Notes under the pieces: generated by a model
What the model was told of the DNA's origin: nothing
What the model saw: the letters and a program-made list of their open reading frames with translations, nothing else
The model's database searches: none
Made by a program: the position numbers and the translations under genes
In this document: positions 1 to 41,242 of the stretch, one piece after another
Layout of the letters: each line of letters starts with the position of its first letter
Position numbering within the stretch: the stretch's first letter is position 1
DNA from: Pyropia yezoensis
Taxonomy: Eukaryota; Rhodophyta; Bangiophyceae; Bangiales; Bangiaceae
Direction of reading: 5' to 3'
NCBI GenBank assembly: GCA_009829735.1
Contig: CM020618.1
Span: 21,499,346 to 21,563,345, forward strand
Length of the DNA stretch: 64,000 nucleotides

Positions 1-1112
1 CGGCCGACGCAGACGCCAACGAGCCGCCGCCGCCCCCCCCCGCCCCTGCCACCGGTCGCCTTGGCCGCGTTGGCCGCCGCGGGGGGGCTCATCATGCCGC
101 GCGGGTGACCGCGAGGGCGCGGCGCCCCGCCGTAATACCCCGCCGCCGTGCGCACGGCATTGGCTTTGGCGCCGTGGCGGCAGCGGGAGCGGCAGGAGCG
201 ACGGCAGCAGGAGGATCTCGGCAGAGCTGCGAGGGTGGTGGTGGGCAAGGAGCTGGCCACCATCATCTCGGGCACCTGCGGTGGGGGTGAGGGCGCGGCG
301 TCGAACCGGGCGGCCAGCCAGGCGGCCAGCCAGGCGGCCAGCCAGGCGGCCAGCCGCGCTGTGTCCCGCCGGGCTGGCGGGCGAGCCTCTGCTGTCGCCG
401 ACGAGCCCGCGCAGGGCGGCGGCCTCCTCCTGCTGGACTGTGTCGCCCGTGGGGGGAGGGGGGGTGGCGGGGCGGCCAACGCCGCACCTGGTTCCCTCCG
501 ACTCGCCGCCAGCCTCCCCCCCGCCTCGCGCCTCCTTCCGCGCGGCTTGCGAGGGCCTGTGCATGGCTGGAGGCCAGCTACAGGCCGGGGGGAGGGGGGG
601 TTGGTGGTGCTGGTGCTGGCGGCGATGGTGGCAGCAAGCCCGGGACCGTCACGGCTCGCCGCCGCGCGTGCAGCCGTGCGGGCGAGCGACCGAGCAAGTG
701 AGCAAGCGAGCGTGCGAGCGTGCGTGTGTCGCGGAGAGAGGTGGCGGTGGGGCTTGCTGACTGGCTGTTTGTTAGGTACCGCCTTCAACCGGGCGGCCAT
801 GCTGGACAACGTTCCCCGTCGGGTAGAGCGTCTGCCCAGGGCCAGGGTGGTGGGCGCCACGCTGTCTCGGAAGGTGGTGTCCTTTTTCCACTCCTCCGCG
901 TCAGGGCTGTCCTTGGGGGCCTGCGCCTGCACGACCGGAAACTTTACCGAGCTTCTGCGGGAGGCGGCGGTGGAGGCGCGGGGGGGGGGGGTCGGGGACG
1001 GGGGGGAGGCATGGGGCGGTCTTGGGTGCGAGGACTGGCGCGGGGTATGAAAGTCGTCGCGTGGGCCGGGCTCCTGTACGGGTATGCGCCGGTGAGACGG
1101 GGCAAGGCACGC
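1..1112. other. Left flank, no gene recognised
   Basis: GC-rich sequence outside the large inverted-repeat element. Several open frames cross it on both strands, but they read as Ala/Ser/Arg or Gly/Pro low complexity and show no domain I recognise. The only clear structure is the short tandem repeat at 309-356 and a GAGC/GTGC-rich stretch around 660-730. Confidence 0.5.
309..356. repeat. 12-bp tandem repeat, four copies
   Basis: Four head-to-tail copies of a 12-bp unit, GGCGGCCAGCCA, with the last copy diverging at its end. In one frame it encodes an Ala-Ala-Ser-Gln repeat. It looks like simple-sequence expansion and no function is implied. Confidence 0.85.
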
Positions 1113-1290
1113 GTGTAATGGTAATTGATACAACTACCGACGCCTCCACCGACTGCCACGTCCGTCGCCTCCATCTCCACCGACTGCCACGTCCCGGGTG
1201 GCCGGTGCACGCATAATGATTGTGCGGGGACCCGGCCGGGTGGGGATCCGGCCAGCCGGGTCCGCGAAAGACTTTGCCGTGGACGGCTCC
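1113..1290 (+). repeat. Left terminal inverted repeat with subterminal motifs
   Basis: The core at 1182-1290 (109 bp) is the reverse complement of 18421-18529 with five mismatches. Two copies of the motif GACTGCCACGTCC, at 1151-1163 and 1182-1194, lie at the outer side. Outside the core, the stretch from about 1113 (TAATGG, then CCGACGCC) aligns loosely with the additional repeat unit of the right end. Repeated subterminal motifs of this kind are typical transposase-binding sites in TIR transposons, and that role is inferred here. Inward, the TIR gives way to a C-rich leader. Confidence 0.85.
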
Positions 1291-1442
1291 CCCCCGCATG
1301 CGGCCGCGAGCGGGGAATCCGCGCGGTGTCGCAATGCGCCCATCCCACCGTGCGCGCCGCCTCCTCCCTCTGGGGAGGGGGGCGCCCGCCCGCACCGCCG
1401 GTGCGGTTTTTCCAGCCGTGCCGGTGCCGCTGTTGGCGCGTC

Positions 1443-1485
<43 letters not shown>

Positions 1486-3441
1486 GCCCCCCCAGCCCCC
1501 CTCCCCCGCGCTGCCCCCCCCCCCCCCCCCCCCCCCCCTCCCCCCCCGTCGGCGGCACGGGCGTCGCCGCTGGCTGCGCCATCCCCCCAGCCCACCCCTC
1601 GCGACCACCCACCTTCCTGTTTCTCCTCCCCTCCTGACGGGTGGGGACACCCAAAAGCCCACTTTCAGCTCAAACTCCTTTGCCATGACGTATTCAGAGA
1701 CCCCCTCCCGGCAGCGACGCGCTTCCTTCCGCCGCCCCCATCCCAGCGGAAGCCCAGGCAATCGCAGGCCGCAGCCCCCCCCCCCCCCCCCCCCCCCGGG
1801 TAGCCCACACGAGCAGCCGCCACAGCCGGCACAGCCACCTGGAAAAGTCAACTGCCGCTCCTCAGCAGCCGCCGCCACCCACGCGCCCATACCGCGCACA
1901 AACGCCACCAGCCCGCTATCGGCTGCCACAGAAGGATGCACATAGTCAGCGACCACGATGGTGTCCCCTAGGTCCCCGCTACCGCTGCCATGGTCGCCCG
2001 CGCCAAAGCCAATGCCTGCGCGGAGCCCACCACCTCTGCCACCGCCGCCGACATCGCCGCCGCCGCCGCCGCCGGCCATGCCAGGTAGGCTTGCCAGGCC
2101 TGAGATGGGACCCGCCAGGAAGCCTCACGGGAAGCCCCCTGGGGAGGCGGTCCAGAACCCCCCCGGGAAGCCGACAGGAAACACAGCCGGGAGTCCAGGG
2201 GCGAGTCCGGCAGGGAAGCCACTGGGAGAGCCCGCCGGCGACCCCGGGGGGAGCTCTCCCCGCATAGCTTCCATCGCCGCCGCCATCCCCATCCGAGGGT
2301 CGGCGCGCCACGCGGCAAGCGCAGCCCGTGCCGCCGCCGCCGCAGCGGGAGTAGCACTTCGTGACGCAGCTGTGGCGGCTGCCGCCGCTGCTGCAGCCGC
2401 CGCCAGCGTTGTGGACGTTGACAGCGACGGCATGGGCGGCAGGGGGGGGCAGCTGTGGCATTGGGGGAAAGCGCGGCGGCAGCTGAGGCGTGGGCGGGAA
2501 GGGCGGCAGCGCTTGGCAGGCGACCAGGCGCCGGGCATCGCAGCTGCATCCGGGCGCCGCAGCCGGCGAGGGCCAGCGCAGCGGGTCTCACACCATGTCC
2601 TTGACAGACGGCCGATTTGACAGGCAACGCGGCTTGTGCGGCCCGTTGCACGTACGACTGTCAACACCAAATGGCCCGTCGGCGAAACTGGTACATATTC
2701 GCTTGTCATATCATTCACGAGGACCGTCACGACAAAGGCGTAGCTCAAAAAGTGGATTAAATTGAACCGACGGTGCACGCGTTGGACGGGCCGCACCGTC
2801 CTGGTGGGAAACCATTCTTTCCATTTTGTATATCCAACTGGCGCGTGCCTGCGGATTCCACACACACACACTGGCAGCGCACGTGCCCCGCTTGCTGTCA
2901 CCTGCGCCGGCAGCAACAAACGCACGAACCCGAGGGCTTCTGACGTGGCACGACCCCGCCCGCCCCCCTCCCCCCACCCCCCCCCTTCCTGTGCGTATGC
3001 GCCGAGGCACGCGGCTTTTCGTCCTCGCCCCGCTCCCCTCTTCAGGGGGGTGCTTCCTGCCACCATCGGCGGGACGTCCCCCCCCCCCCCCCCCCCTGCT
3101 CTAATTCTCGTGTCTGGGCCGCGGTCGTGTCGCGGGATCGAGACGCGACCCATTTCACTGCCACTGGCCCAATCTCCCCTATTCACACACCCTCCCCGCC
3201 CCCTCCCCCCTTCGCGCACCGCCCTCCCCACCCCCCCCGCATCCATCTGTCGACCCCCCGACGCCGCCTCCCGGGTTGCCTTTCTTTTTCAACCCTCTTT
3301 GCCCCAGCCCCCGCGGACAAACAACCTCCCCGCTCCCCCCCCCCCCCCCCCCCGCCAACGACGCCGGCCTCCGTCACCCCCCGCGCGGCACGGACGACCG
3401 AGTGCCCTTGTTTTACGCTGGGCTCTGCGCCGGGGTCAGGT
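1291..3441. other. Long C-rich leader between left TIR and first gene
   Basis: About 2.1 kb without a gene I can support. It contains mononucleotide C runs, including 39 C at 1445-1483 and others near 1516-1537, 1778-1797 and 3080-3096. It also has a Gly-Lys-Pro-coding stretch around 2100-2250 and an AT-richer patch at about 2690-2830 (including TTAAATTGAACC near 2756) that could hold a promoter. Both strands carry open frames of 150-390 codons, but their products are Pro/Ala/Gly-biased and unrecognised. The C-tracts just before 3442 resemble the pyrimidine-rich leaders before other start codons in this window. Confidence 0.4.
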
Positions 3442-4007
3442 ATGGAGTGTTCTGACCCCCCGCCATCCCCTCCGCCATCCGTTGGGGCGGCCAGTCCGCC
3501 CCTCGCGGACGACATGGACGTCGAGGACAACGGCCGGGAGGCCACACCGTCGCTGAGCTATGACGACGCTCTGCTGGACTTTGGCGACCTCGACGGTCGT
3601 GACGACTCGACTTCGGTACCGGTACCGCCGTTGACGCAGCCGCAGCCCGGTGGGGTGGACGAGCCGGAGCAGGACGGGATCAGCAGCTCCTGTTTGGGCG
3701 GCGACGACAGAGCCGGTACCGTCCAAGGGGACGAACGTCCGGGGAATCCCCCGGATGATCGTCCGCCACCGTGGCGGATCACGGACGGGCCCGACGCCGC
3801 GCCCGCCGACGGCCCTATATCCCCGTTTTGCACGGTTCAAGAGTCGGTGTCCCTTCGAGACATTGACATGCTTGGCGAGGGTGTGCGCGCGTCGCGGGCC
3901 TACGTCATCGGCTTGTACTACGAACAGTTTAAGCAGACGGGCTACTGCTGGGTAACAGGCTCCCTACGCGTGTGCGAACAAGGCGGGGATGACTTCGATA
4001 AGGAACC

Positions 4008-4044
<37 letters not shown>

Positions 4045-6260
4045 CAACGCCAAAAACGGTACTGGCTCATTGATGGTTACCACCGGTTTACTGCCTTGAT
4101 GCGTCACCTGAACGAGCGTCACCCACTCTCACGAGCGTCGGAGCTCTTTGCTGTCGTATCCCGTCGTGACGGGCGGCCACTGTCCAGGACGGACATTATC
4201 GGCCTGGGCGGCGCCGCCAACTTTGTCACGGTGCGCACAGAGCCGATGAGTGCGCGTGACCAGCTCACCTGGGCCATTGGGTGGGTGACGGCGCCCAACG
4301 ACGCCACACTGGCCAGCGCGTACCACTGCATCACACCGGGCATGCCGCCAGCGGACCTGGCGAAAGCTGTTGGCTCGCTCATCAAGGAAGCACGCTCGCA
4401 TGGGGCGGTGCCCCGTAGCATCACAACACAAAAGGAGTTGGGAGACGAGTCCCTGCGTAAGCTGCTCAGCTTGGGTGCCGCTGCCGTGACAGAGCGCGAG
4501 TCCATCGAGCACATTGTCACCAAGCTGCAGGAGGAAGCCGCCGCCAAGGACAGGAACGGAGCCGCCGGGGGTGCTGCTGCGGCTCGCTTTCGTGAGCCCC
4601 GCGGTGTGCGACGTCGTGCCGCGCGTGTCGCCGGCGGCCCTGTCAGTGGCGAGGACGACAACGACGACGATGAAGACGACGACGACTGTTACGATTCCGA
4701 CGATCACGATGGCGTCGACGGCGTCGATGGCGGTTCACGTGACTGTGGCAAGGGACCCGCCCGTGACGGCCGAGGCAAGCTACTGCGCCAGCGCGCGAAC
4801 AGGACGCTCGCGTTTTGGGCACTTGGGTCCATCCCGTTCCTCCATCTTCCCGGAGTGCCGCCAGCTGAGAGGAACTCTGCACGTGTGCTGATGGTCGATA
4901 CGTCTTGGGCGTGGTCCGCGGGGTTCACAGCAGACGGCCACATGAACCGTCTGACTCGGGGCGCGGACAGCCCGTTTTTCTGGTGCGTATTGATTTTCAT
5001 CATGCACGTCATCAACACGGTCACCGCTGAGCGCTTGTATCGGATCACCCGTGGTGGATTGGAGCAGCATAAGCAGCACGAGCCACACACCACGGGGAAG
5101 GGGGAGGGGGGGGATGGGCGCGTGCAGCCTGCGACGGTCGCCAAGGTGCAGACGACCTCGGCGACGGCGGAGGCAAAGTCGTTTCCTGCACGCCACGCAC
5201 AACTCGCCCTCGACGACAAGGCGGCGTCGGCGTTGCAAGTGCTGCAGCAGCGCCGGCTGGGCCGCTCGCGGACGCTTCGGCACGAGTTGATCGGCGTTTT
5301 CGTACGCCACTACACGTGCGAAGAAATGATGGCCACGGTGGAGAGAGTAAACAAGGTCACTGGCCAGCGCAAGACTGTCATACAACACGGAGGCGGGAGG
5401 GATGGTGCCCAAGTTCGTCATCGGCCGTTTATGACTGTCCACTTTGCTGCGTGGGCCAAGGACTTTGACGCGTTTGTCAAGACAGAGCCGCCGCCACCAC
5501 CACCGCCGCCGCCGACGAGCACAATTGCAGAGGACATTGTGGCGACCGCTGCCGCTGCGGCCGCTGCCACAGCAACTGCAGGCAAGGTGCGGCCGGTACA
5601 GCAGCAGCAGCCCCAGGTCACAGTCATTCCCGCTGTGAATGCTGACGTCGGCGGCAACAAGAGGGCCGCCAATGACACCCAGCGGTACGACGGCGATGCC
5701 AGAGATCGTGACGAGGCGGACTGTGGCGGTGGTGGACACGACAAGAGCCACGGCTCCGGCGACGCCGCGGCCTCGCGGTCGGACTGTTTTGAGACGCCCG
5801 TGGAGACGGTGCGGCGGCCGCTCGTTCCCGCCGTTTTGACGCAGGTAGACGACCAGTTTCGGTCATCACCGTCCTCACCGCCGGCGGCCCAGTCGCCGAC
5901 ACGGGCTCTGTCGGCCAAACCGCCGGAGGCACCTGCAAATCCCGAGGATGCACCCGCAGCACCAGCAGCAGCACCGGCAGCAGCACCGGCAGCAGCACCG
6001 GCAGCAGCACCTACAACCGTACCGGAGGCAACAACAGCAACAGCATCATCGCGTGCAGCCGAGACAGAAGCCAGGGGAACAGCTGCGAGCGCCTTGGCGG
6101 GTACTGCGGCAGCGGCTACGGCTGCTGCTGCCGATTCCGGTGCCAGTGCCGGTGCAGGTGCCCGTTCTGGTCCGGCGAGTGAGGGTGCTGGGTCTGATGC
6201 AGGCGCCCGTTCTGGTCCGGCGAGTGAGGGAGCTGGTTCTGATGCAGGTGTGCGCGCAGC

Positions 6261-6303
<43 letters not shown>

Positions 6304-7899
6304 CCCGAACCAGCACCTGCAGCACCAACACCAGCAGCACCACAACCAAAACCGGCAGCACCCGCACCAGCAGCACCCGCACCAGGAGCACCCGCACCAG
6401 CAGCACCCGCACCAGCAGCGCCGGCAGCGCCGTCAGCAGCCGTCGCAGAAGTCACGGATACAGCAGCGAGCGCTTTGGCGGCTGCTGCGGCTGCGGCTGA
6501 GGCTGCCGGTTCCGGTCCCCGTGCAGGTGCTCGTGCCGCTGCCGCTGCCGCCGCAGCTGCGGCTGCCGCTGCCGCTGCCGCTGCCGCTGCTGCGGGTGGT
6601 AGTGGTGGGTCGGCGGATGGCTCGACGTCGGCCACCCCATTTCGGAGGCGCCACGCCCGCAGCGCCGCCAATCGGGCGACGCGACAAGCGTCCGTGGCTG
6701 AGGCGGCACACGGCGGCGGTGGTGGGTCCAGACCACTGACCAAGAAGAAAGCGCGCTCCAACCGTGCGCGCCGCCCTCAGGCCAAGGCGACCGCCAACGC
6801 GGCCGACAAGAGCGACGGGGAGTCCAAGCGCACGCCGCGCGGATCCAGCAAGGCCACGCGTGGCGCGGGCAAGAACCAAGTGGGTGGAAGCCCCGAAGAA
6901 GCAGGGCGTGCTGCTCCCTCGGGCGGCGGTGGGGTAGACCCTTCGACGCGGCCGTACACCGATACGGTGCCGCCAGTGGCGGCCTCCCGAGCACTCGACG
7001 CTACTGCGAGGCGGGCGGCGCTTGGTTGCCCTCTACCACCGCCGCGCTTGGCGGTGGCTGCTACTGGTGCTGCTGCTGCTGACGAGGAAGAGCAGGAGGA
7101 CGCGCGCGTGGCGCCACCGCCGGCGCCGCGGGGAGAGGTACTGCCTCCATTTGCGGCGCTGTTGCCGCTGGAGCACCAGGCGCGGGACCTTCTGGAGCTG
7201 GGCGTCTGGTACGACGCGGACGCCCGGGCGAAGGCGTACATGGTCAACGCGGGCGCACGGGTTGCGCTGGGCGCCAAGGCCGACACAAACGTCATGTCGT
7301 CGGGCTGGCCCGAGGAAGTCTTGTCCATTTTGGAGACGACGGCCGCGTCAGTGCTTGCGACCGAGCTTTTTGAGCGCGGCTGGGCGATTCTCCAGGGCGC
7401 CACCGCCGTAGGTATGCCTGTCATGCACATGGCCGACGACGACGGCGGGGGCGGCGGTGGGGGTGGCGGCGGTATCCATGCGGCGGCGGGGCAGCCCTCG
7501 CAGCTGCAAGCCCGCCCTAGGGCGGAGTCGGGCACGGGGACGGCGGGACGGGTGTTGAGCGTTGTGGACGCGACGCTGCACGAGCTCATGCGCAGGTTTC
7601 CTGGGGAGGCAGAGCTGGCGAGACGGGCCAAGCAGGAGCAGCGGCGGGGTGCCAGTGCAAGGCGCAGTCGGAAGGGCGACACTGGTCGCGTCGCTGCTGG
7701 GGGTCGCGGTACTGTTGCGGGTGATACACCCCCCGGTGCAGACGACGGGCGGCTGCACGTGGATGACCTGTGGTCGCCCATCATCAACACCAACATTGAT
7801 TCGCTGGACCGCAAGTTCACGAGCAAAGGGCAAGGCCGGCTATCCGTAGGGGTGGACGCGCTCTGCAGCTCAGACGACAACGAGCGTCACAGCCTGTAA
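3442..7899 (+). CDS. ParB-like domain protein with N-terminal part of a 2OG dioxygenase; ends at an in-frame TAA
   Basis: This predicted 1485-residue protein starts at ATG 3442, just after a C-rich leader; the frame is open further upstream but only through Pro-rich sequence. Residues about 130-330 look like a ParB/sulfiredoxin-type domain: the signature IDGYHR (residues 210-215) matches the D-G-x-H-R box of ParB-like proteins, which bind and sometimes cut DNA and, in phages and bacteria, are often linked to DNA methylases. An acidic stretch follows (about 395-430). The segment at about 640-1180 is Pro/Ala/Ser low complexity with a 45-bp tandem repeat. Near residue 1310 the string FERGWAIL resembles the N-terminal helix of 2OG-Fe(II) dioxygenases. 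The frame stops at TAA 7897-7899 and continues, same frame, into the catalytic core downstream, so this is probably the first half of one broken gene. ParB call moderate; nuclease activity not shown. Confidence 0.6.
6160..6249 (+). repeat. 45-bp coding tandem repeat, two copies
   Basis: Two adjacent 45-bp units, at 6160-6204 and 6205-6249, encode the 15-residue unit ARSGPASEGAGSDAG with minor changes, inside the low-complexity linker of the ParB-like protein. This is a recent in-frame duplication. Confidence 0.85.
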
Positions 7900-7926
7900 C
7901 TGTGCAAGTTGGCGGCCGATGTGGGT

Positions 7927-10380
7927 ATGGTGGCCCTGGCGTACAAGGTCCTTCGCGGCCTTCAGAGGGTTGAAGCGGCACGCCGCGAGCACTCGCAGCT
8001 GCCCTACGCCCGGCCCGGTCGGAACCTGATTCCCGCCACGTCCACGCGGCCCGTCCCCGGGCCTACCGAGCAGCACTTTGTCGGCAGCCGAGACGACGCA
8101 CTGCCACCGCTTCGCGTTCGTGCTCCTCGGACGGGCTCTAGGGTGCTGCTGACGACTGCCGGCGCAGTGCCACAGGTCCCGCACGTGGACTTGCCCGTTT
8201 GGTCGTCCGCCGAGTGTCGACAGCGTCGTCGCGGTGGCGGCGGCGGTGGTGGGCCGGGCGGGAGCGAGCGTCGCAAGGGCTCCTCCTCGCACGGGGCGCT
8301 TGGTGCCAGCGGCACTATGGACGATGATGGCAAATACGCCGATGACGACGAGGACACTGGCATTGACGTGCAGGTGGTCTCTGATCCTGTGTACGAGATG
8401 CCTCTGACGAGAAGTTTTTTTGCTCTTGCGTCTGGGGCAGACGCGTTTTCTCTGCGCGTCTGGCCGGGAAGCGTGCTGGCCCTGCAGCGGGAAGCCGACG
8501 AACCCACCTTACGCGACCAATTGGTAATGCCCATGACGTTGGTCGTGCCGCCCAACTCTTTCATCATTGTTCGCAGTGAACTTGTGCACGGCGGCACAGG
8601 CGCCAAGGATGACGTGTGGCGAGCGCACAAGGCCCTCGCGGAAGTGAGTTACCCGCGCAGCATCCGCCTCCACATGTACCTGCAGCACGAGGACGACCCG
8701 CTGTACGACGCAGTGTTTCTGCCTCTACGTGCAGGCGTGTTTCTCTCCCCCGAAGACGTGGCAGCCCGCCGCCGTCTCCGTGAGCGCGGCCGATGCACCG
8801 ACTGCGGCCAGCGTGTCCCCGAAAACAAGGATGGCGACGGTGACGGCGACGGTGACGGCGACGGTGACGGCGACAGCGGCAGCGACAGCGGCAGCGACAG
8901 CGGCAGCGACAGCGGCAGTGGCGTCAGCAGCGACAGCGACAGCAACAGGGGCAGCAACAGGGGCAGCCGCAGCGGCAGTGGCGTCAGCAGCGACAGCGAC
9001 AGCAACAGGGGCAGCAACAGGGGCAGCCGCAGCGGCAGCGGCAGCGGCAGCGACAACGACAGCATCAGGGGCGGCGCCAGCCGCAGCGGCAGCGGCAGCG
9101 ACAGCGACAGCAACAGGGGCGGCGGCAGCGGCAGTCGCAGCGGCAGTGACAGCGACGGCGGCAGTGACGGCGGCAGTGGCGTCCGCAGCGACAGCGACAG
9201 CGACAGCGGCAGCGGCAGCGGCAGCGACAGCGGCAGCGGCAGCGACGGTGGCAGTGACAGCGACAGTGACGCCGACAGTGACGGCGACGACGGCAGCAAC
9301 AGTGACAGCGTAAGCAAGTACGTCCTCGGCGCCGCTGACGGAACAGGCGGGCGTGTCGGCGACAGGAGTCCTGGCGCCCAACGTGTTACCTCAGCTGTTG
9401 GTCGCGCCAAGGGCAAGGGGCGAACAGCAGCGCCGCCGCAATCATCCCGCGCCGTCAGCGGCGGCGGTGGCCGCGGCGGCGGCGGCGGCGGCGGTAGAGC
9501 CAGAAACAGCAGCCAGCCGTCCGTCGAGGTGCCGTCGAGTGTAGCACGGCGGCGGACCCCACGGCCCGGGCCCGAGGCCCGCGCACTGGATAGCTCAACG
9601 ACACCCCGGCGAGCAGCAACGTCCACGTCTGTGCCCGGGACGACGCCGGCAACGGGGCCACCGCAGCGTCCCGGACTCCCCGGACGACGGCCTTCGCCGG
9701 CATCCGCCCTCACGCCTTCAACTAGAACACCTTCGCGACCACCACAAAGCCGACGGGGTGCCACAAAGCCACCGAGTCGTGCACCGCCGCTGGACGCCGC
9801 CGCACTCTCTGCGAGCCTTGCCGCCAGAATTGCCGCCGACCGTGACAGAGTTGGGCGTCGCCCCCCTCCTCTTGCTCAGAGGCACCCGCCTGGTAGTGGC
9901 GGAGGTCCCTGTGGCAGCCGCGGCGGCGGCGGCGGTGGCGGCGGCGGCGGCGGCCGCGGTGGTAGCTCCCGCTCCGATGGTGGTGGCACCGGCCCGGCGA
10001 CTAGAGTCGCTCGTCTGGCGTCTGGAGGTGTCAGTCACGGTAGCGTGCGTGCCAGTGCCGGTCGTGGCCGCGGCGGTGGAGGCAGCGGTGCGACTAGCCT
10101 GGCCGGTCGCCCTGGGCATGGTGCCAGATTGCGACCCGGCGTCCGGGGGGACGGCCTCGACAAAGGGGAAGGCCGCAGCGCGAGTGCTGGTGGCGACAGT
10201 GCCCGAGGAGGTGGTGGTCGCCGCACCGAGGATGGTGGTCGACGACTCGGTGGTGGTAGTGGCGGAAGGAAGCGCCCACGTGAGGACGATGAGACGGACG
10301 GGGACACGGGGCGGCCTCTGTCACGGACCGGCTCCGGCCGGCCGGCGGATGGAGGTCCTTCCAAGAGGCGCCCGATTTGA
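7927..10380 (+). CDS. 2-oxoglutarate/Fe(II)-dependent dioxygenase core with Ser/Asp/Gly-rich tail
   Basis: This continues in the frame of the preceding ORF after the TAA; the first in-frame ATG is 7927, giving 817 residues. The double-stranded beta-helix iron site is visible. The H-x-D motif is in PQVPHVDLPV (His codon 8182-8184, Asp 8188-8190). The distal His is in LVHGGTG (8587-8589), and the 2OG-binding Arg is in SIRLHMYL (8665-8667), the usual order and spacing. Family knowledge: such enzymes oxidise many substrates, and TET/JBP and AlkB members act on nucleic acid bases. Its place beside a DNA methyltransferase and ParB-like domain makes a modified DNA base a reasonable guess, not a demonstrated one. 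From about 8820 the protein is Ser/Asp/Gly repeats, then a Gly/Pro/Arg-rich tail that may bind nucleic acid. A freestanding protein from 7927 would keep all iron ligands but lose the N-terminal helix. Confidence 0.65.
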   Translation: MVALAYKVLRGLQRVEAARREHSQLPYARPGRNLIPATSTRPVPGPTEQHFVGSRDDALPPLRVRAPRTGSRVLLTTAGAVPQVPHVDLPVWSSAECRQRRRGGGGGGGPGGSERRKGSSSHGALGASGTMDDDGKYADDDEDTGIDVQVVSDPVYEMPLTRSFFALASGADAFSLRVWPGSVLALQREADEPTLRDQLVMPMTLVVPPNSFIIVRSELVHGGTGAKDDVWRAHKALAEVSYPRSIRLHMYLQHEDDPLYDAVFLPLRAGVFLSPEDVAARRRLRERGRCTDCGQRVPENKDGDGDGDGDGDGDGDSGSDSGSDSGSDSGSGVSSDSDSNRGSNRGSRSGSGVSSDSDSNRGSNRGSRSGSGSGSDNDSIRGGASRSGSGSDSDSNRGGGSGSRSGSDSDGGSDGGSGVRSDSDSDSGSGSGSDSGSGSDGGSDSDSDADSDGDDGSNSDSVSKYVLGAADGTGGRVGDRSPGAQRVTSAVGRAKGKGRTAAPPQSSRAVSGGGGRGGGGGGGRARNSSQPSVEVPSSVARRRTPRPGPEARALDSSTTPRRAATSTSVPGTTPATGPPQRPGLPGRRPSPASALTPSTRTPSRPPQSRRGATKPPSRAPPLDAAALSASLAARIAADRDRVGRRPPPLAQRHPPGSGGGPCGSRGGGGGGGGGGGRGGSSRSDGGGTGPATRVARLASGGVSHGSVRASAGRGRGGGGSGATSLAGRPGHGARLRPGVRGDGLDKGEGRSASAGGDSARGGGGRRTEDGGRRLGGGSGGRKRPREDDETDGDTGRPLSRTGSGRPADGGPSKRRPI
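8830..9310 (+). repeat. Ser/Asp/Gly-coding repeat tract with two 60-bp units
   Basis: A 6-bp-based array of GACAGC/GGCAGC-type codons encodes an SD/SG-rich acidic region. Inside it a 60-bp unit is duplicated exactly or nearly so, at 8911-8970 and 8971-9030. Expect polymorphic length. It lies just downstream of the dioxygenase core and should be disordered in the protein. Confidence 0.85.
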
Positions 10381-10895
10381 AAAAGGCGACCGCATGGGCC
10401 TCAGGCGGTCGCGCAGGGAGTGTGTCTGTTGACATGTGGGATGCCAGGGGAAGCTAGTTTGTGTGGCAGTGGTGGTCGTGGGGAGTGGGGCTGTTTTCTG
10501 TTTTGCATTTGTTTGTTTCCTGTGTTTGAACTACGGTGCGGGGGGATGACGGGGGGGTGTGTGGGTGGCAGGGTCGCCGAGGGCGCAAACCTGGAAACAT
10601 CACACAGCTGCTCTGTACGTACTCGTCGGTTTCAATTCCCATTCAGTACACATATGGATATCTTTTTAGATACAGTGACGCCGCACAGGATAGATATCGA
10701 CTGACAAGTGCATTCCGTTTTGAATGTATGAACTTGCGGCCACACAGAAGCGCGCCAACTGTCGGTCGACCCCGACACTCTGTCTGTGGGTGGCTGCGGT
10801 GCACACGACCCACCGCACTGCGACGCGGAACTTGCCGCGATCGTTTGCGGAGCTTCACCCGCGCCGTTGCTCCGAGTGCAAGCCCGGCTGCCCGC
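10381..10895. promoter_or_regulatory. Spacer between the two element genes, probable promoter
   Basis: About 510 bp separate the dioxygenase stop from the preferred ATG of the methyltransferase gene. The segment at about 10620-10740 is clearly AT-richer than its surroundings and contains ACATATGGATATC and TTTTTAGATACAG, plausible core-promoter sequence. The methyltransferase frame is open from 10536, but the part upstream of 10896 has no recognisable protein character. No terminator signal was identified. Confidence 0.35.
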
Positions 10896-11212
10896 ATGGC
10901 CGACCTTTTGCCACCCTCGTGGCTCGTCCTCAGCGTCACGCGCATCGTCACCGCTTGTGCTGAGGCCGTGGTGGACGCCGCCGGTGATGGGGCGGACGCC
11001 TTCGCCGCTGACACCGCCGCCACTGCAATTGGAGGCGCCACCGCCACCGGGACCGAACGCGGTGCCGGCGGCAAGAGGTCTGGGCCTGTGGAGGATCGTG
11101 GCAACCAGCCCGCTACCGCGGCGAGGCGCCCGAAAAAGCGGCGCGCCGGGGCGCCAAACGCTGTCCGAGACGATGAGCGGCGCGGGACAACCGGCGGCGG
11201 CGGCGGCGGCGT

Positions 11213-11251
<39 letters not shown>

Positions 11252-14200
11252 GCTGGACTTTCAGGGCGGATGTGGTTGCCGGCCTTCCCCTACTGCATGC
11301 ATGGACGTGCACGACGCATATCCCGCCCGCGCTATCACTGTCGGCCTCGCCGCGTTGCGCGACCAGTTTGTGCTGGACAAGGTGCGCATTGAGAAGTTGG
11401 ACAATCCCGACGGCAATGGGGGCGGCCCGGTAGCTGCTGCTGTGCGGTCAGCGTGTGGCGGTGAAAACAGTACGGCTCCGGGAGTGGCCGCACCCCGTCC
11501 GGCCGATGCGACACTCGAGGACGCGACGTGGCCGGCGGTCAAGCTTTGGGCCATCACGCTCACGCGCCCCCCTCCTCGGCACGCCGTCCAAGGCCAGCAG
11601 CAGCACCATCAGCAGCAGCGGCCGCCCCTCTCGTGGTCCGATTGGCCTCCTGAGGCCGAAAATGCGGTTGCCGGTACGTCCCCGACGTCGGGCCGCGTGC
11701 TCCACACGCCGCTGACGTGGTGGATGGAGGGTTCCCACATCAAACGCATGTACAGTGCGGTGTGGGTCCTGAAGCGGTTTGTGTCTTTGCCCCCGCTCGG
11801 CGGCGGGGGCGGCGGGGACGCGCGCGGGCGGCGTCCCCGCCCGTCATCCGCGTGGCGCCGCGTGCTCGCCCTCCGCTCCGGGCGTGTGGACGTGTCACCG
11901 CCGTCGCGGCCGACGCCGCAGTTGCAGTCGCCGACGCGACGGCCACTGCCACCGCCGCTGCACGAAGAAGAGACCCGCGGTCTGCCCGGCTGTGTCGTCC
12001 ACATGACAGACGCCAACCACGACGACGACAAACTACGACAGACAAACGTTGCTGTTGTTGATTGTACGTCGGGCGACCCGTCGGTTGACGTCCGGGTGTG
12101 GCAAGCGGTCCTTGACGTTGGGACGCTGAGAGAAGCTGCCCTGGACGTGGCCGCCCAGGCCGCGAGCTTACGTCATCGAGACGCATGTGCCAGGCACGTG
12201 GCTGGCTGCGGGCATGGGGAGGAAGTTTCGCGTACCGCGGCGTACGCAGCCGCTGCGGAAAGCGCCGCGTGCCAAGCCAGGCAAGAGACAAACACAGCCG
12301 GTCAGGAACAAACCACAAGAAGCGCCGCGCCGCCCGTTCTGCATCAACCTGGTCCTGGACAGGGTCGGCATGTGCCACACTCGACCAGTCGGCACCACGA
12401 GTCTTTTGTGACGTCGCAGCGCTCGCGCTTGGCGTCGCCGCAGCCGTTGCCACTGCCCGGCCGGCCGGGGTGGCAGACCGCTCGCCGGGGCGCTGCGCGG
12501 GGCCTGCAGCAAGTGGACGTGCTGACGCCAGACAAGCGGTTTCTTATAGCCATTCTGGAGGGCGCCCTCGGCACCACCGCCTTTGAACGCGGCTGTGGTG
12601 CCGTTGATGGCGGCATGTGTGCTGGCAGCGCCAGCGACTCTGCCGCCGAACGCCAGCCCTGTTGTTGTGAGCGACGGCAGGCTGCTGCCGAGATGGAGCC
12701 TTTCGAGCTCCTACTGTGGCTCTCCTCGCTGCACCCGCTTGTCGCCGCCGACGCGGAAGAGCGGCGGCGGCTTGCACCACAGCGGCAGCAGCCAACAACA
12801 CTACCGTTCCGCCCCGCGCGCCCGTCATCGACACCGACCCGCAAGCTGCAAGGCACACTTCCACCACCAATCGCCGAGCCTGCGGTACACAGCGACGGGC
12901 GCAGGAAGGCCTTTTCGTCATGGTGGGCCTGCGCGTCCGCTGCTGCGGCTGCCGGAGCTGAGCCTCCACCACATGGGCGAAAGCGTCCTCGTTCCGCCGT
13001 TGGGGGTACGGGCGTTCCATGCAGCCCTGAACAGGGTGCTGACGACGCGTGCGCTGCGCACCGGGAGGGGCTCGCCTTGTTGGCACTCAGCGCCACCGTT
13101 CGATGTGCTGTGACCGCCGTCGTGCGCTCCTGGGATGCCGTCGCAAGGCGCATCGGCTTTGAAAGCATCGAGAACTGCCTCGCCCCGTACCTCTTGTGGC
13201 ACTCACGGTCGTGTGCGTTTACGACGCTGTCAGAACCGCAAGGTACTGCCGGCGTTTTCGCGCCCGCTGCGCATCGGTTTGACATTTCCCACGGGCTCCC
13301 CCCCCCAACTTCCAGGGCCGACAGGGACGGGACTCCCGTCTGTACAGAGGCACTGCACCGCACCGGCGTCGCGGATGCACAGCTCCGCATGGCTGCTGCT
13401 CATTTTGTCTACCACATGGGGGAGGTGACGAAGCCCGAGCGACTCGCCGACGCGGCAGCCGCTCTGTTGGGAACAACTGCAATGCAGCAGCCGCAGCGGG
13501 GCCAGCCGCAGCGAGGACAGCATCTGCAAGCGCCTTCCCGCCCAGCCACCGCCACGGCGGCGGTTGCTCCACCACCGGCGTCGGCTGCGTCGGCGGTTGA
13601 CGCGCTTCCTGCTGCCGTCAATGGGGAAACAAAGCCGGGCTATTTGACAGCCGCTGCTTTTGTGGGCAGAGGACTGGCAGCACGCTGTCCGTGGGAGGTG
13701 GTGGGGGTGCCCCCAGTGCTAAACCCGACCGTCCGAGGCCTAACCGGCTTTCGGCCCGTCGTCGTCGATGCCGCAGGGGCAGCAGCGATGGGCACCATCC
13801 CGCCCGCGACGCCGGCCACCGCGGAGGAGGGGGGGGCGGGGGGGGGGGGGGGCGCCCCCGGGAGGATGCGTGCTTGTCGCGTAGAGGACGCAGGCGCCCG
13901 TGTGAGCCTGGTGAACCGCGCTCTTGCGCGCGACGCAGGCATCGCCGCAGCGCGTGCGGCGTTGGCTGCGGACATACACCGGGGTGGCACGCCTGTCGCT
14001 GCTGCTGCTGTTGCAACACACGCCGCTCCCCGTGTGTGTGACGACGAGGACGACGGCGGCGGCGTGGGTGGTGGGCGTGCCACGCCTGTCAATGCCGCTG
14101 GGGGGCAAGGCCAGCCAGGACCGCGAGCAGCACAAGCAGAACGAAAAGCACCGGCAGCAGCGTTCAGGGCGCAGCCGGCAGCACCATCGCCTGTACCATC

Positions 14201-17200
14201 AGCAGCACCAACAGCGCCGGCCAGACGAGCGGCGTCCGTAGCCGGGGGGTCACCAGTGCTCCCTCCGCCAGTGCCTGGCACCGAGGGCGGCTCTGCGGCT
14301 GCGTTGGGGAGTTGCAGGCCTGTCACCAACGACGTCCCGTTGGCCCGTCACATCCGCACTGTGCAGACGGCCATGCGTGCCATTGTGCAAACGCATGTGT
14401 GCGACGTGAGGGACCTCGACAACACCCACAGCGCCGCCAACGAGGGTGCCGGCAGCAGCAGCAGCAGCAGCAGCAGCCGCATCGGAGGATGTGATGCTTG
14501 CCGCATTGGCCCCGACCTGCGTGGCGCTGTTCAGCTCGTGCTGTCCGACCCCCCTTACAACACCCGCCGTCTACATGCAATGCCGAACTCTCATTACGAC
14601 AACCTGTCGGAGGACGTGCTGAAGAAGACCGCGTCGCGGATACACGACTGGGTTCGTCCTGGTGGGCACGTGCTACTATTTTGCAGCCCGATGCAGTTCC
14701 CGCTGTGGGTGACGCATCTGAGCGAGTTGGAGGACCCACTCCCGCCGACGGATGGTGACAAGGCAGCAGCCGTAGCTGCAGCTCCCGGCAGTGGGGAGGA
14801 ACCAGTGTCGGGGGGTCAACGTGCGGCTGCTGCTGAGGCAGGGGCTGCAACGGGTGCTGCCCCTGATGCGCCCGACGGTGCGGTCGCCGCTACGACCACA
14901 GGTCCGCCAAGGACGACCGACCGCTCAGCTGCCGGTAGCGGCGGGGGTCGTGACCCCAACCGTGGCAGTGGCGGTGGCGGGCGGGGCGGCTGGGAACCTT
15001 CTGTTGGAGAACCACGGCAGCGAAAACGACGACGGCGAGCTACACCCGCTTTTCAGGTGGAATCGTGCCCCATGTTGGCCGTTCTGGCGCCGAACGCGTG
15101 GGCACCGACAAGAAGGTCGTCGACGATGATGACCAACCGGTCCCAGTACGTGCTCCACGCGACCAGGAACGGAGCGCCCGCCGCGGCTGCCTGTCGGGCT
15201 GTTAATTACCGCACGTTCAACGCCGTCCCGTCGCGCTTCCCCGCGCACCACAACGTCATTGACAACGTGGTTCCCCTGCGGGATGTCGAGGTCCTTCGCT
15301 GGACGCCGGGGCTGAGAGAGTTGGTTGGTAAGCCGCAGCAGCAGGAGCAGCGGCAGAGCACCGGGCGGCGGGACGCCGACGGCGGGAGCGGGGGCGGCGG
15401 CGACAGCGGCAATGAGAATACGGACAGAGACGTGGACAATACGCCGTGCGGCTGCGACGACGGGGCCGACGACGACGGAGAAGTGCCTGACCCCAACGAT
15501 AATGTTGGCGACGACGACGATATGGATAGCGACGTTGCCGACGGCTCCGACACGGAGGGCGGCGACCAGGACGACACGGACGATGACGGCGACGACGACG
15601 ACGACGGAAGCGACGTCAACTGGAGTCTGGGCCCTCAAAGACGCACGAAGCGCGGAGCACGCCCCCCGGAACGGGGAGGCGGTGCCGGTCGAGGCAGCGC
15701 GCGTGCACGTGCACGTGCGGGTGGTGGTGGTGCTGCCCCCACCGCGTCGGCGGGGGCGTCGGGGGGTGCTCCCGACGACGTCCCGCCTCGCGCTGGCCGA
15801 CGCGTGGGTACTCGGCGTGCGTTGGACGACGGTGCTCCGTCCAAGCTGGCCAAGCCGCGCTGCCCGCCGCATCCCACCTCCTCTGTGCAGCAGCGTCAGG
15901 AGGAGCTGCAGCCGCAGCAGCGGCAGACGTCACCATTGCGTCCTCCTTTTCGCCCCGCTCACCACAAGACACGCCCGCGCGCCCTTGCGCCACGCGTCCG
16001 AAGCGAGCAGAAGTCTGTCCTCTTCCTGTCCGAGTTGATCATGCGAATGTCCAATGCGGACGACCTCGTCCTCGACATGTTTGCGGGCACGTGCTCCACC
16101 GCGATGGCCGCGATCAGGATGCCCAGCGGCCAGCATCGGCGCGTTGTTTGTGCCGACAGCGACCCGGCCGTCATTGCAGCGTCGCAGCCACGCCTGTTCC
16201 GAGAGTTTGTCGACCAGGTTGTTAGTGGCGGCTTCCGGTCGTGCCCCGACGTTACTGCAGAAGTGGTGCACGCTGCGCGAGAGGTGCTGGCAGCCAATGA
16301 GGCCGCCGCCGTCGCTGCGACAGGTGCTGCAGAAGGTGCTGGGGACCTGGTCGTGGCCAAGACCGCCCCGCTGCTGCTGGCGCCGTCCTTTCAAACGACA
16401 GCCGCTGCCTGGGCGCGCGTGCCCGGCCAGCCGTGCTTCACGGCCCTGCCAGCACACATGCTCCTCCTGCTTGCCAACCGGTGGGCCGCACAAAATGATA
16501 ACGAGCGAAGGGCGGGGTACCACACGCACCCCCGCGCGCCTGTGCGCGGAGCTGAGGTCGGCGGAGTGGTCATTGGACTCGGCGGGTGTAGCGTGGGAGA
16601 CTGGCCTCCTGACCTCGTTGCTCGCCTTGCGGTGGAGGACCACGAGCTGATGCTGGCTGTGGAGGCCGCTCACTACGGCGTCGTTGTCGCACATTCCCGC
16701 GTTGCGGGAGGCACCGCCGGGAGCGGCTTGTTTGCTGGACGCCGGTTCCGAAAAGGCGATACGATTTGCCCGTTCTACGGCGCGCTGACCACATGTAACC
16801 TGGCCAAACGTGGTATGACAAGGACCGACCGGTACGCGTCGCCGACACTGGGGGCCTTGGGACCTACGTCCAAGGCGTTTTCCGAGAACGCCGTCAAGGT
16901 CCATATTCGATCTGAAGGAAGCATGGAAGGAGACGAAGGGCAGCGGGGGACAACGGGGCGACTCCGAATGGGACAACAGCGACAGCAGCAGCAGCACCCG
17001 GGCGGCCCGCAGCAGCAAAAGCAGCAACACGAGCGTGACGGCGTGGAAGCGCAAGAGGAGCAGGGCCGAGCTCGGGAGGAGCTGGGCGAAGAAATCGTCG
17101 ACGAGGACGAGGACCGGCCGCTCCGTGCGCGCAAGAGCCGGGTACACTATGGCTCCGCTGTCGCCGCCTCGGCGACTTTCGCGTACATGATTCCCGCTGC

Positions 17201-17993
17201 CTGGTGAGTGGCGGGCCTGGTCAATGACGGGCGCCGGCAGACACGGCTGGAGCAGCAAGTTGGGGCAGCCACGGCCAAGAGCTTCTTGGCCGTGCAGCAC
17301 GCTCCCGAGGCGGCGGCGTTTTTGCCTCCTGCCGGGCGACCACCGGGCGGTGTTACACGCAAGGGTGCTGCGAGTGTTGCTGTAGATTCCACTGCTGCTG
17401 CTGCTGTTGGTGCTGCCAGTGACTCCTCTGCAGTTGTTGCGGGTGCTGCTTTGGGCGGCCAGGATTTCAATGTCGAAATGAGTGTCAGGTGTCCCGGCGC
17501 TCACGGCCAAGACCCGACTCTGTCGGAGCTTGTGGAGCCGGGGGTCGTCGCCCTTGTCGCCACGCGGGACATAGGCCAGGGGGAGGAACTGCGTACTGAT
17601 TACGGTACGTCCTACCGGTGGTTGACCACGGACATCAGACAAGCCATGTACGACGGCGACCGCGCTGGCGCATCGGTCCGCGACGGCGGCAGCGGCAGCA
17701 GCACGAGCCGCCGGCGGGGCAGTGCAACAAGGCAGACCACTGTTCGCCACACAAATGCGGACAGAAACCGGGAGCGGACCGAAGCCGACAACCGTCGCAG
17801 CACGCCCCACACGTTTGCGCCCATTCACGAAAGAGGCCGCGGCCCGGCCACGGGTGCAGCCCCGCCGGCTCACCGACCGAGCGTCGGGGGCCTTTATTCC
17901 CGGCCACCACACCCAGTGGCCACGCATGCTCACCCGTACTGTCACCGCTGCCGGGGCAGTGGCTTGGGCGTTGCGGGCACCAAGTGGCGCTGA
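10896..17993 (+). CDS. Beta-class DPPY DNA methyltransferase fused to a SET domain
   Basis: The start at ATG 10896 (MADLLPPSWL...) is chosen over the upstream open frame from 10536. Residues 1-1150 are not recognised, with Gly/Ala-rich stretches. Motif IV, SDPPYNTR (Asp 1218), precedes the SAM-binding motif I, LDMFAGTCST (Asp 1727), followed by VVCADSD. The order IV then I is the beta class of bacterial/phage amino-methyltransferases; DPPY favours adenine-N6 over cytosine-N4. About 500 residues, partly acidic, separate the motifs, where the target-recognition domain would lie. From about residue 1930 a SET domain begins with GSGLFAGRRFRKGD...PFYG and ends with NVEM and LVATRDIGQGEELRTDYG (about 17470-17610). 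TGA 17205-17207 interrupts it, but GTGAGT at 17204 is a strong 5' splice site, and a 216-nt intron to 17419 would restore the frame. The canonical SET NHSC box is not visible. Ends at TGA 17991-17993. Confidence 0.75.
17204..17419 (+). other. Candidate intron inside the SET coding region
   Basis: The sequence TG|GTGAGT at 17204 is a near-ideal 5' splice site. The AG at 17418-17419 follows a TGCTGCTGTTGGTGCTGCC stretch and gives an excised length of 216 nt, a multiple of three. It removes the only stop codon in the SET frame. Other AGs would also do, so the 3' end is uncertain. The alternative is a plain nonsense mutation. Confidence 0.45.
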
Positions 17994-18420
17994 ATGGCGG
18001 TACCGGCGGCGCGCGGTGGGGCCTATGACGGGTGCTGGGACGGACATGCGGAGAGGGGGGTTAGGGCTGAGTGTGGAATTGTGGGGGGGGAGGGCAGGGG
18101 AAGCGGCGCGTCGCGTACGTGGGGCAGCTCCGTTCAGTGCCACACGACCTCATTCCCAACGGGAGCTCGCTTTGAGCTGCAATGACAAACGCGATGGGAG
18201 CGGGGCTTGACACGGGGAGCGGGGCTGGGCAGGGTGGTGAGGGAGGGGTGGCGGGAGGGGTGGGGGGAGGGGGGGTGAGGGGAAGGGGGGGGCAGGGGGG
18301 GCCCGTCTGCAAGCCGAAACGTCTGCCGACACTTCCTCGTGGACGGTGGGGCGGGGGGGGGGGGGGGGGGGGGGGGGGCGGGACCCGACCTTGTCCACGT
18401 CCGCGGGCAAGCGCAGGGGG
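17994..18420. other. Spacer between MT-SET gene and right TIR
   Basis: Contains no supported gene. It is strongly G-rich on the + strand, with repeated GGGGTGG-type sequence at 18220-18300 and a 26-G run at 18353-18378. This mirrors the C-rich tract just inside the left TIR, so both element ends carry a C/G homopolymer block next to the inverted repeat. Confidence 0.5.
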
Positions 18421-18640
18421 GGAGCCGCCCACGGCAAAGTCTTTCGCGGACGCGGGTGGCCGGATCCCCACCCGGCCGGGTCGCCGCACAATCATTAGGC
18501 GTGCACCGGCCACCCGGGACGTGGCAGTCAGCGACGAACGTGGCAGTCCGCGGTGGCGTCGGGTCGCCGCATATCCATTATGCGAGCACCGGCCACCTGG
18601 GACGTGGCAGTCGGTGGTGGCCACTGTAATTAAAAGAAGG
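18421..18640 (-). repeat. Right terminal inverted repeat with extra repeat unit
   Basis: The core at 18421-18529 is the reverse complement of 1182-1290 with five mismatches in 109 bp. Outside it a second, diverged copy of the GACTGCCACGT...GGCCGGTGC...TAATG unit is present, so the right end has three GACTGCCACGT motifs (read on the - strand) against two on the left. This asymmetry in subterminal motif number is a feature of several eukaryotic DNA transposon groups. Confidence 0.85.
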
Positions 18641-19252
18641 AACATTAAATACAACAATCGATAACAAAGCGCGTTAAAATACAACAATCGATGCTTACCA
18701 TGACGCACCCGCACGGCCTGACTGCCCCCCCCCCCCCCACCCCGCTCTATCCCTAGGCCCCCCCTTCAGCCGCACCGCTCACATTGATTGTCCTGGCCGA
18801 CCCAGGCCGCGGTGCAACGCACCTGCAGCCGCGCCACAGCCGTGCACGTGTGGTGTGTGGGCCTGCATGGGGCGCGCACGCCGTGTGCTGGGGGGACTTC
18901 AGAGGAGGGGGGGGGGGGGGGGGGGGGGAGGGGAGCTTGGAAGGACGCGCTGCCTGACGGTTTGGAAGCACACTGCCAAGACGGCCGACGGCTGAGCAGA
19001 GCGCTATGTGGTACGACTGTGCTCCGGAAAGGGAACCAACTACCACACTGGCTATGTGTTACGACTGTGCTCCGGGAAGGGAACCAACTACCAGACTGGG
19101 TGCGTGCGTCGCGGCGAGGGCGCCAAATGGACTTCGACTCTCAACACACAGTCAGCAGGTGTCTATGGACAAGAAGAAAATCATGCATACCTCCTACTGG
19201 TCTGGGTATGGGTGCCGCCAACCCCACACCCCTGCGAGGGCTGGTCGCGCCG
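18641..19252. other. Right flank of the element; short repeats only
   Basis: Immediately outside the TIR the sequence becomes AT-rich, and a 15-bp unit AATACAACAATCGAT occurs twice, at about 18646-18691. A C run (about 18726-18737) and a G run (about 18908-18927) follow. A 48-bp tandem duplication with few differences begins at 19003 and ends near 19098; its copies share TACGACTGTGCTCCGG. No gene is supported. The stretch is downstream of the Ulp1-like gene, which is transcribed toward it. Confidence 0.6.
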
Positions 19253-21814: not shown

Positions 21815-22724
21815 TCCCGCCGCCGCCGCAGACGGCCGTTGTGGCGCCGGTACGAGGGACCGGTCAGTAGTTGATGGTAGATGAAGGGGGGGGGGGGGGG
21901 GGTGGGGGGGGGGTGCACGGCAGCCGCCACTGCCTTAGCCGGCGCCACAACAGCAGCCGGCCACCGCCGCCCCCACCGCCGCCGCCGCCGCCGTGGGCGG
22001 CGCACGTGCAAGCAGAGGACGGTGGGGACCCTCTCGGGAGAGGGGGGGGGGGGGGGGGGTGGAAGGGAAGCAGCCACGCACGGGAGCCAACGATGGCGAC
22101 TGGAGCGACGGCACGGTGCGTGGAGCCGAGTGCACAGGGCGGCCGAATGGTATGTGTGCACGTCTGTACGCGGCCGCGGCCGCGACGCCGGGCGTGGCAG
22201 GGTCTGGAAGTTTTTTTCGCCCTGGGCTCCCCCCCCGCACGATGTGCCACGTACCTGAGTGCTCCTTGCAACGCTCCGTTTTTGTCGTCGCTCACATTTC
22301 GCAGCAGTTGAAACTTTCAAAAAAATGAATTGCAAGCTTTGTAAAGCATGGCTGTCTGGCGTAGATTTAGAGGGTAACCGTATCTATTTTTGCGAGTGAC
22401 TCGTGCCCTGCCTTTGGGAGAGAATCGACGGCCAGGGCCCCCGCCCACCACAGCCAATCGCCGCGACGCGCGAAATTTGGGCCGCACGCCATGTCGGCAT
22501 ACAGCGGGACGCCTGTGCCGCACGCTCCCCCGACCCTCCGACTCACAATCGCTGTCGGGCGGTCACGCACAGGGCGGCCAGGCACGCCCGCACGCTCGCC
22601 ACTCTGCTTCTGTGTTGCCCGTGCTGCGTGCCCTGGCCTTGCATGCCCCTACCCTCAAGGCAAACCGACGCGCTGCTCGACGGCGGAGCTGTCCCTCCCG
22701 CGCACGTCGCCCGCCCGCCGGACA
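21815..22724. promoter_or_regulatory. Divergent promoter region
   Basis: About 900 bp separate the heads of the Ulp1-like gene (-) and the 1746-residue gene (+). Poly-G stretches at about 21887-21911 and 22041-22059 read as C-tracts in the leader of the leftward gene, the arrangement seen before other start codons here. The region 22300-22400 is AT-rich (TTTCAAAAAAATGAATTGC and TATCTATTTTTGCGAG) and is the best place for core promoters. No gene was seen. Confidence 0.45.
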
Positions 22725-27965: not shown

Positions 27966-28302
27966 ACGCCCGGGGGCGCTTCGTTGCTGGCTAATGGGGC
28001 TGTGGGGCCACTCAACCCCCCACACCTTTGCCCCCATGAGCGGGTGAAGAGTGGGGTGGGGTGTGTCCCCTTTTCGCTGACACTGAAGGGGGGGGGGGGG
28101 GGGGGGGGGGGTGCTGTTCATGTGTACACACAGGTGTGGGACGGAATCGTACGAACAAACGGTAGCCATGCATACACACACAAAGCTACGAAGGGAAGCC
28201 AGGATGGAAAAAAAAAAAATAGCTGTAGAGAGACAATACAAAGCCGACGCCAGCCGGTGGCCAAGCCCCCCATCATCGACTGCCTGGCTCCGGGGCTGTC
28301 GG
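27966..28302. other. Convergent intergenic spacer
   Basis: This short spacer lies between two converging genes. It contains a 24-G run at 28088-28111, a short A run at 28208-28219 and CATACACACACAAAG-type sequence near 28171. Nothing else is recognised. Confidence 0.5.
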
Positions 28303-29373: not shown

Positions 29374-29501
29374 GTCTGCGTAGCAGGGCCCGCCGCCGCC
29401 GCCGACGACCACACACCGGCAAACGGCGCGTCCAGGCAACGTTTGCCAGTTGCACACGAGCCAGCAGCCGCAGTGCGCCCGAGCACGGGCTTGACGTCTC
29501 A

Positions 29502-30286: not shown

Positions 30287-30299
30287 TTTCCCGGGGCGC

Positions 30300-41204: not shown

Positions 41205-41242
<38 letters not shown>

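Follow-up and report, generated by a model that had tools for sequence, protein, structure and literature searches.

A probable family of giant DNA transposons in the red alga Pyropia yezoensis, with a Fanzor-like gene at the right end and a fused methyltransferase-SET gene in some copies

The stretch of DNA considered here, called the window, comprises 64,000 nucleotides of the Pyropia yezoensis genome (GenBank assembly GCA_009829735.1, contig CM020618.1, forward-strand positions 21,499,346 to 21,563,345). Comparisons of left ends, right ends and end pairs place in it a giant unit of 48,204 bp (C1:21497544-21545747), which runs from window coordinate -1801 to 46402, so that the portion within the window is 1..46402 (+ strand). 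The unit is probably one member of a giant DNA transposon family that lacks terminal inverted repeats (TIRs) and whose copies with paired ends mostly measure 45-65 kb, and the genes that first drew attention to the locus lie inside it. The initial annotation, made from the sequence of the window, had proposed a 17.5-kb TIR transposon with two genes at 1113..18650. That this is mobile DNA, present in many copies, was correct, while the boundaries, the TIRs and the two-gene content were not. All genomic searches were carried out in the window's own genome of 107 Mb.

Cargo genes and the right-end gene

Codon scoring gives few strong coding stretches in the element, and these correspond to seven genes: a ParB-like/2-oxoglutarate (2OG)-dioxygenase-like gene, a methyltransferase-SET gene, an Ulp1-like gene, a gene for an alanine-rich protein, a gene for a protein of 384 amino acids, a helicase gene and the right-end gene. 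Only the first two had been placed in the element originally; the others, among them the Ulp1-like, PIN-like, helicase and Fanzor/TnpB-like genes, lie inside the real unit as well.

The ParB-like/2OG gene (3127..10380, +) is interrupted in the window copy by a stop codon at 7897-7899, across which the coding score runs on. The methyltransferase-SET gene (10536..17993, +), in which an amino-methyltransferase is fused to a SET domain, is interrupted at 17205-17207. Both stops are private to the window copy: the first codon is open in all six other copies, and the second in all five other copies aligned there. Copy E, one of six copies (A to F) compared with the window, is open from the methyltransferase through the SET domain, and the grouping of the open reading frames (ORFs) into two genes therefore stands.

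In the open copy E, both domains of the methyltransferase-SET gene lie above their Pfam cut-offs, which agrees with the original naming of the gene. The N6_N4_Mtase domain (PF01555) is matched at 2.1e-8 in the window and at 1.1e-8 in copy E, above cut-off, and the SET domain (PF00856) is matched in copy E at 1.8e-5, with 25.6 bits against a cut-off of 22.4 for a 400-amino-acid piece and 22.2 bits for a longer piece. In the window fragment the SET match (0.028, 15.3 bits) is below the cut-off. The DPPY motif comes first and the S-adenosylmethionine (SAM) motif later, which is the beta order of N6/N4 amino-methyltransferases, and the PHROG family of DNA methyltransferases (phrog_67) matches both parts, in two stretches, at 1.8e-10. 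The CcrM model (0.002) and the PRK11524 model (0.0004) give weak matches below cut-off, and RsrI in the Protein Data Bank (PDB) is matched only at 0.46. The proposed bundling of a DNA amino-methyltransferase with a SET domain is thus realised as a fusion in one gene.

The ParB-like/2OG gene is assigned at the level of motifs: DGYHRF, which we take to be ParB-like, and HVD ... H ... R, which we take to be a 2OG-dioxygenase signature. Scans of its protein against Pfam, NCBIfam and PHROGs gave no match, and the AlphaFold model of the 2OG region, with a pLDDT of 38, was unusable. A leftward-reading relative of the ParB-like N-terminus (GYCW...NGYRRF) occurs near the left end of copies D and E (L039:2753-3505 and L040:1039-1878); the relative in L040 has no Pfam match.

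The right-end gene (41524..46206, +) has a stop at 45340-45342 in the window copy, which is open in copy C, and its C-terminus, NTSKACSECH ... GCYTC ... RNRD, has the form of a zinc finger followed by RD. In PMC3627910, the Fanzor/TnpB motif is given as D-X(125,275)-[TS][TS]XX-C4 finger-X(5,50)-RD. Copy C has it once, complete; the window also has it once, but there the upstream D is cut off from the remainder by the stop, which lies just ahead of the zinc finger. In 20 mononucleotide shuffles there was no occurrence; the other loci of the motif scan (26 with copy C) do not reach the right-end gene and serve as background only. The gene is likely to be Fanzor-like. What speaks against the assignment is that the C4 spacing was widened after the right-end gene had been seen (the CxxC pairs are far apart, and up to 130 residues were allowed), and that a genome-wide scan with PF07282 gave no match at this gene. 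Applied to the gene itself, PF07282 gave 0.014-0.097 at the expected position, below cut-off, and there was no match in NCBIfam. Sequence searches of the PDB matched mostly glycine-rich linkers, and a structure model of the C-terminus was unusable.

Ends of the element

The left end of the unit lies about 1.8 kb outside the window and begins with AGTTA, and its right end is at window base 46402. The left terminus reads AGTTATCC... and the right terminus ...TTTAACCGATAGTT, with unrelated flanks at the loci read. To the left, homology with copy D ceases at C1:21497544, i.e., at window coordinate -1801, when 10 kb further left are compared; to the right, the window and copy C diverge beyond 46402.

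The same ends recur throughout the genome. A left-end query had 106 first-look candidates; 40 places were scored, and in 27 of them the match extends to query base 1 or 2. Thirteen left junctions were read, of which 11 start at AGTTA with unrelated flanks, while n6 is without nine bases and p8 without about 24. The last 200 bp at the right have 101 candidate places; 40 of them, among which is the window itself, were scored, and all 40 show 96-100% identity along 198-200 bp. Among 23 right junctions read, 20 have exactly AACCGATAGTT, and the remaining three (E, p9 and n5) differ by one base within the last few; no two of the 23 right flanks are identical, with an 8-base word common to A and E. 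Identical ends between unrelated flanks in many copies imply that the unit is mobile as one piece. Segmental duplications of a host gene cluster would also give large blocks of 93-99% identity, but at the 23 right and 11 left junctions the ends are common and the flanks unrelated, which leaves that explanation with almost no probability.

The conserved right end (46204..46402, +) follows on the Fanzor-like gene. Guide RNAs of Fanzor-type systems derive from the transposon end (PMC10432273), and the right end is therefore named a candidate guide-RNA region; by analogy it may hold the guide RNA of the Fanzor-like gene. Its predicted fold has a z value of -1.9, and 6 of 200 shuffles fold equally well.

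Instead of TIRs, the element has a subterminal inverted match of about 20 bp, 22 bp inside the left end and 6 bp inside the right end, whose score is reached by 12 of 5000 shuffles. An inverted copy of the right end was also sought as a left TIR, and this sequence, TTTAACCGATAGTTA, has 30 exact matches against 0 in the control. The candidate was rejected, since 19 of the 30 are listed right ends and three more (copy C, n7 and n8) read as right ends; the remaining eight enter the pairing table below as right ends on the 15-base match alone.

The left-hand sequence retained in the window copy (1..1113, +) stops at a deletion junction, 1113/1114. Window positions 1-820 have 36 matches from 34 candidates and positions 899-1113 have 27 matches from 26 candidates. 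Copies D and E match 899-1116 and join it to several kb that are absent from the window copy, and 14 other copies of the repeat unit that begins at 1114 have in common a stretch, left of the equivalent base, which the window is without. Eight copies, the window included, have common sequence left of 899, and copies extend to the window's first base. A left end at 1114, and later one at 899, were both dropped when further copies were found to continue leftwards. Four copies (t1, p10, C and t3) have another left sequence in common, either a second version of the left end or a common insertion; the four loci with this sequence are C3:14722740, C1:13798690, C3:19639660 and C3:25780410.

Consider now the inverted repeats that had been read as TIRs of a transposon bounded by 1113 and 18650. 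The inverted pair is real (1167-1295 and 18416-18544, 129 nucleotides, 91% complementary), with a shorter second inverted match at 18560-18617, but its members are not termini. The left one belongs to a dispersed intergenic repeat (1114..1547, +) which adjoins the deletion junction and of which the copies A to F each carry one to four directly oriented units at their left; the right one (18416..18617, -) consists of two inverted copies of the same repeat, 83 bp apart, and is internal in all six. The left repeat has at least 45 matches among the best 40 of 159 candidates, many of them arranged as direct repeats on the same strand with spacings of a few kb, and the right repeat at least 52 among the best 40 of 101. 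The six copies are six of the seven loci noted as inverted pairs, and all six match the window from 1114 and past 18650, to at least 19347, in long blocks of 93-97% identity (the query ended at 21,000). In copy C, the only one that was extended (by 40 kb), homology to the window reaches 46403, with some stretches at 85-90%. The 17.5-kb TIR model is refuted because homology continues past its right end, and next to no credence is left for it. Further inverted pairs, about 17-22 kb apart, do occur at several loci, as the model predicts, but for the wrong reason, the pair being an internal dispersed repeat in every copy compared. A long terminal repeat or a satellite as the source of the repeat is ruled out, its units being internal to a longer unit. 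The case illustrates how an internal inverted repeat may be mistaken for transposon ends.

Copies, movement and relation to known systems

The size of the family units follows from pairing the ends. The tables hold 40 left ends and 51 right ends (40 from the 200-bp right-end search and 11 from TTTAACCGATAGTTA, 8 of these 11 unread). For 21 of the 40 left ends, a same-strand right end lies downstream within 130 kb, at distances of 14-121 kb, and 14 of these 21 distances are 45-66 kb; opposite-strand ends and upstream ends, used as controls, each gave 1 of 40. Where both ends are paired, the units are mostly 45-65 kb. The helicase stretch of the element has at least 57 candidates, of which 40 were scored at 93-100% identity, and for 28 of these 40 a listed right end follows downstream at 5.6-24 kb, in most cases at 7-10 kb (0 of 40 in both controls). 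The methyltransferase stretch has 18 matches from 18 candidates, which amount to 16 or 17 loci, some matches being split; among the ends listed, six of the 18 are flanked by both ends, six by one and six by none. The methyltransferase block belongs to a minority of copies, by loss or gain. With a 20-kb query (window 21000-40900), no more than 2 of 3648 candidates were scored, which is little guide to the copies of that part.

The copies read are not intact. In each of the six compared, one or more of the scanned segments contain a stop, the positions being scattered, and the window has three; some of all these stops may be intronic. The synonymous divergence dS is 0.01-0.06 in nearly all segments, with 0.24 in one short stretch of copy B. 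The spread of the family seems to be fairly recent, and those copies that were read are decaying; constraint on the cargo genes is only weakly indicated.

Movement could be one-ended and resemble rolling-circle transposition, the right end being fixed; such a route has been proposed for Chlamydomonas Fanzor elements of the Helitron2 type, but here it is the weaker part of the interpretation. It would be driven by a Rep or other transposase, none of which was found in the ORFs scanned. The right-end gene would be a Fanzor, of the RNA-guided nuclease family, with its candidate guide RNA in the right end, and the methyltransferase, SET and ParB-like/2OG proteins would modify the DNA and chromatin of the element, by which it might escape from silencing. 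Such escape by self-written epigenetic marks is plausible.

Several observations weigh against a giant transposon that moves in this manner. The scanned ORFs include no recognisable RepHel protein, recombinase or intact transposase. A direct repeat of 12 bp, AGTTACAGGGTG, is seen at the left-truncated copy n6, but no duplication of 9 bp or more at the six further left junctions that are truncated or variant, and a TTTT target is found at none of the 11 complete left junctions. The left end seems to exist in more than one version, four of the seven truncated or variant left junctions being alike. The ratio pN/pS between the window and the copies varies by segment from 0.35 to 1.57. Finally, a joined-flank search at nine junctions for an empty site gave only the flanks themselves, repeats of two right flanks and one left-flank paralogue, that of n7 at C2:12259587 (87% identity), which extends just past AGTT.

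An alternative with some, but limited, claim to be true is that the element is itself a Helitron2/Helentron, namely a giant non-autonomous derivative whose mobility depends on an autonomous Rep-helicase element at another place in the genome. The Fanzor-like gene near one end, the lack of TIRs, ends able to fold, the subterminal inverted match, the truncated left ends and the duplication at a truncated copy all agree with it. In PMC3627910, the Chlamydomonas reinhardtii Fanzor1 elements CRe-1, CRe-2 and CRe-3 are described as Helitron2, with intact 3' ends and frequent 5' truncation; duplications are lacking in copies complete at the 5' end and are about 7-19 bp in most others, after TTTT. The inverted repeats of Helitron2 are there given as asymmetric, with a distance of 0-2 bp to one end and of 20-30 bp to the other. 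In the present element the distances are 22 bp and 6 bp instead, and the TTTT target is missing. Pfam scans of the main ORFs of the window and of left-part ORFs from copies D and E gave no Rep/helicase protein, autonomous copies elsewhere not having been searched. The helicase that the element does encode, at the end of a large protein (32052..38795, +), is of the IGHMBP2/UPF1 kind in superfamily 1 (AAA_12 at 6.3e-34; TIGR00376 at 3.5e-40, below its own cut-off), and not Pif1.

Compared with what that source describes, the giant element is like CRe-1, 2 and 3 in its Fanzor-like gene, the absence of TIRs, one end nearly always intact with the other often truncated, internal deletions, and the duplication at a truncated copy. 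It is unlike them in its many more genes, the lack of a TTTT target and a different end geometry. The likeness to Helitron2-type Fanzor elements is suggestive and does not amount to membership. The giant element is probably also far larger.

A recombinase-driven element of the Crypton or Starship kind, in which the AGTT at both ends would be the crossover core, is rather unlikely. It would account for the AGTT that 11 of the 13 left ends and 20 of the 23 right ends carry, for the mostly absent target duplications and for the large cargo. Pfam scans of the main proteins, however, contain no recombinase domain (for the tyrosine recombinase, with the left element part read only partly), and no empty site showing an AGTT target was recovered. 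Fungal Starships and the medaka Teratorn are similarly tens of kb or more in size, with many genes, and mobile as a unit, but the tyrosine recombinase by which the former are classified and the piggyBac-like part of the latter were not found in the scanned ORFs of the giant element.

Among readings that keep the unit as a giant transposon, the boldest would make it a new superfamily of eukaryotic transposons, with the Fanzor gene and guide RNA as the fixed end and a nuclease that assists in the retention or homing of 50 kb of cargo, whose DNA- and histone-modifying enzymes protect the element from silencing; this is unlikely. SET genes in HarbingerS and MuDR elements and TET/JBP genes in fungal transposons are already in print (PMC12730594), where such DNA- or chromatin-modifying enzymes are discussed as counteracting silencing; those elements belong to Harbinger, MuDR and other transposase superfamilies, whereas the present element joins SET to an amino-methyltransferase and has yielded no intact transposase. 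A DNA methyltransferase aboard a mobile element is likewise known from retrotransposons, with a C5-cytosine enzyme (PMC5890265), while the present enzyme is of N6/N4 type in a DNA element. No giant Fanzor-ended element with methyltransferase and SET was found among the top results from the open-licence literature in PubMed Central, most subscription papers being outside this scope. A family of 45-65 kb, with about 100 first-look candidate places per end in a genome of 107 Mb, a Fanzor-like end and methyltransferase-SET cargo would extend both giant-transposon and Fanzor biology, and it offers a concrete system for asking whether transposons use DNA amino-methylation and histone methylation against silencing.

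Other cargo and neighbouring genes

To the right of the methyltransferase-SET gene follows the Ulp1-like (C48) protease gene (19253..21814, -; Pfam Peptidase_C48 at 3.5e-15, above cut-off). Large algal viruses are a possible parallel for the combination of an Ulp1-like protease with SET and methyltransferase genes, and together with the size and multi-gene content of the unit this would suit an endogenised large DNA virus or Polinton-like virus. This origin is highly improbable: in the scanned ORFs, which cover the left part of the element incompletely, Pfam matched neither a capsid protein nor a packaging ATPase nor a DNA polymerase, and single-protein scans of a viral contig collection with the 2OG, methyltransferase and helicase proteins gave no close relatives. 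A phage scan gave two weak helicase matches.

Just beyond the 3' end of the Ulp1 ORF, a 48-bp unit occurs twice in tandem at 94% identity (window 19003-19098). The alanine-rich protein (22491..27965, +) has a weakly PIN-like C-terminus (PIN_11 at 0.028, and at 0.002 for a C-terminal piece, both below cut-off), and the 384-amino-acid protein (28303..29457, -), found by codon score, is without a match in Pfam or PHROGs. Between the helicase and right-end genes lies a broken Tc1/mariner transposase fragment (39254..39609, +; HTH_Tnp_Tc3_2 at 3.7e-5, below cut-off), across which the alignment with copy C is continuous; it is probably an old nested insertion. In the left element part, a duplicated family of unknown proteins that is absent from the window copy occurs at L028:7300-8097, L031:1389-2063 and L039:1-654, with no convincing match in Pfam.

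Other insertions are seen in further copies. A 9-kb piece within a 14-kb end pair holds a nested retroelement, read as Ty3-type, and a masked stretch, and no transposase was found in that piece. In L062 and L082, other copies of the giant element contain nested pieces of what we take, from motifs, to be Ty3- and copia-like retroelements.

An ORF situated left of the element, at L061:1430-2998, would encode a putative relative of vanadium haloperoxidases. Host genes to the right of the element, in window 47396-57081, encode a CAP-domain protein (9.4e-10), an SNF2/CSB-like helicase (8.2e-82) and an arylamine N-acetyltransferase-like protein (2.4e-22). The GC content of the window is 0.70.

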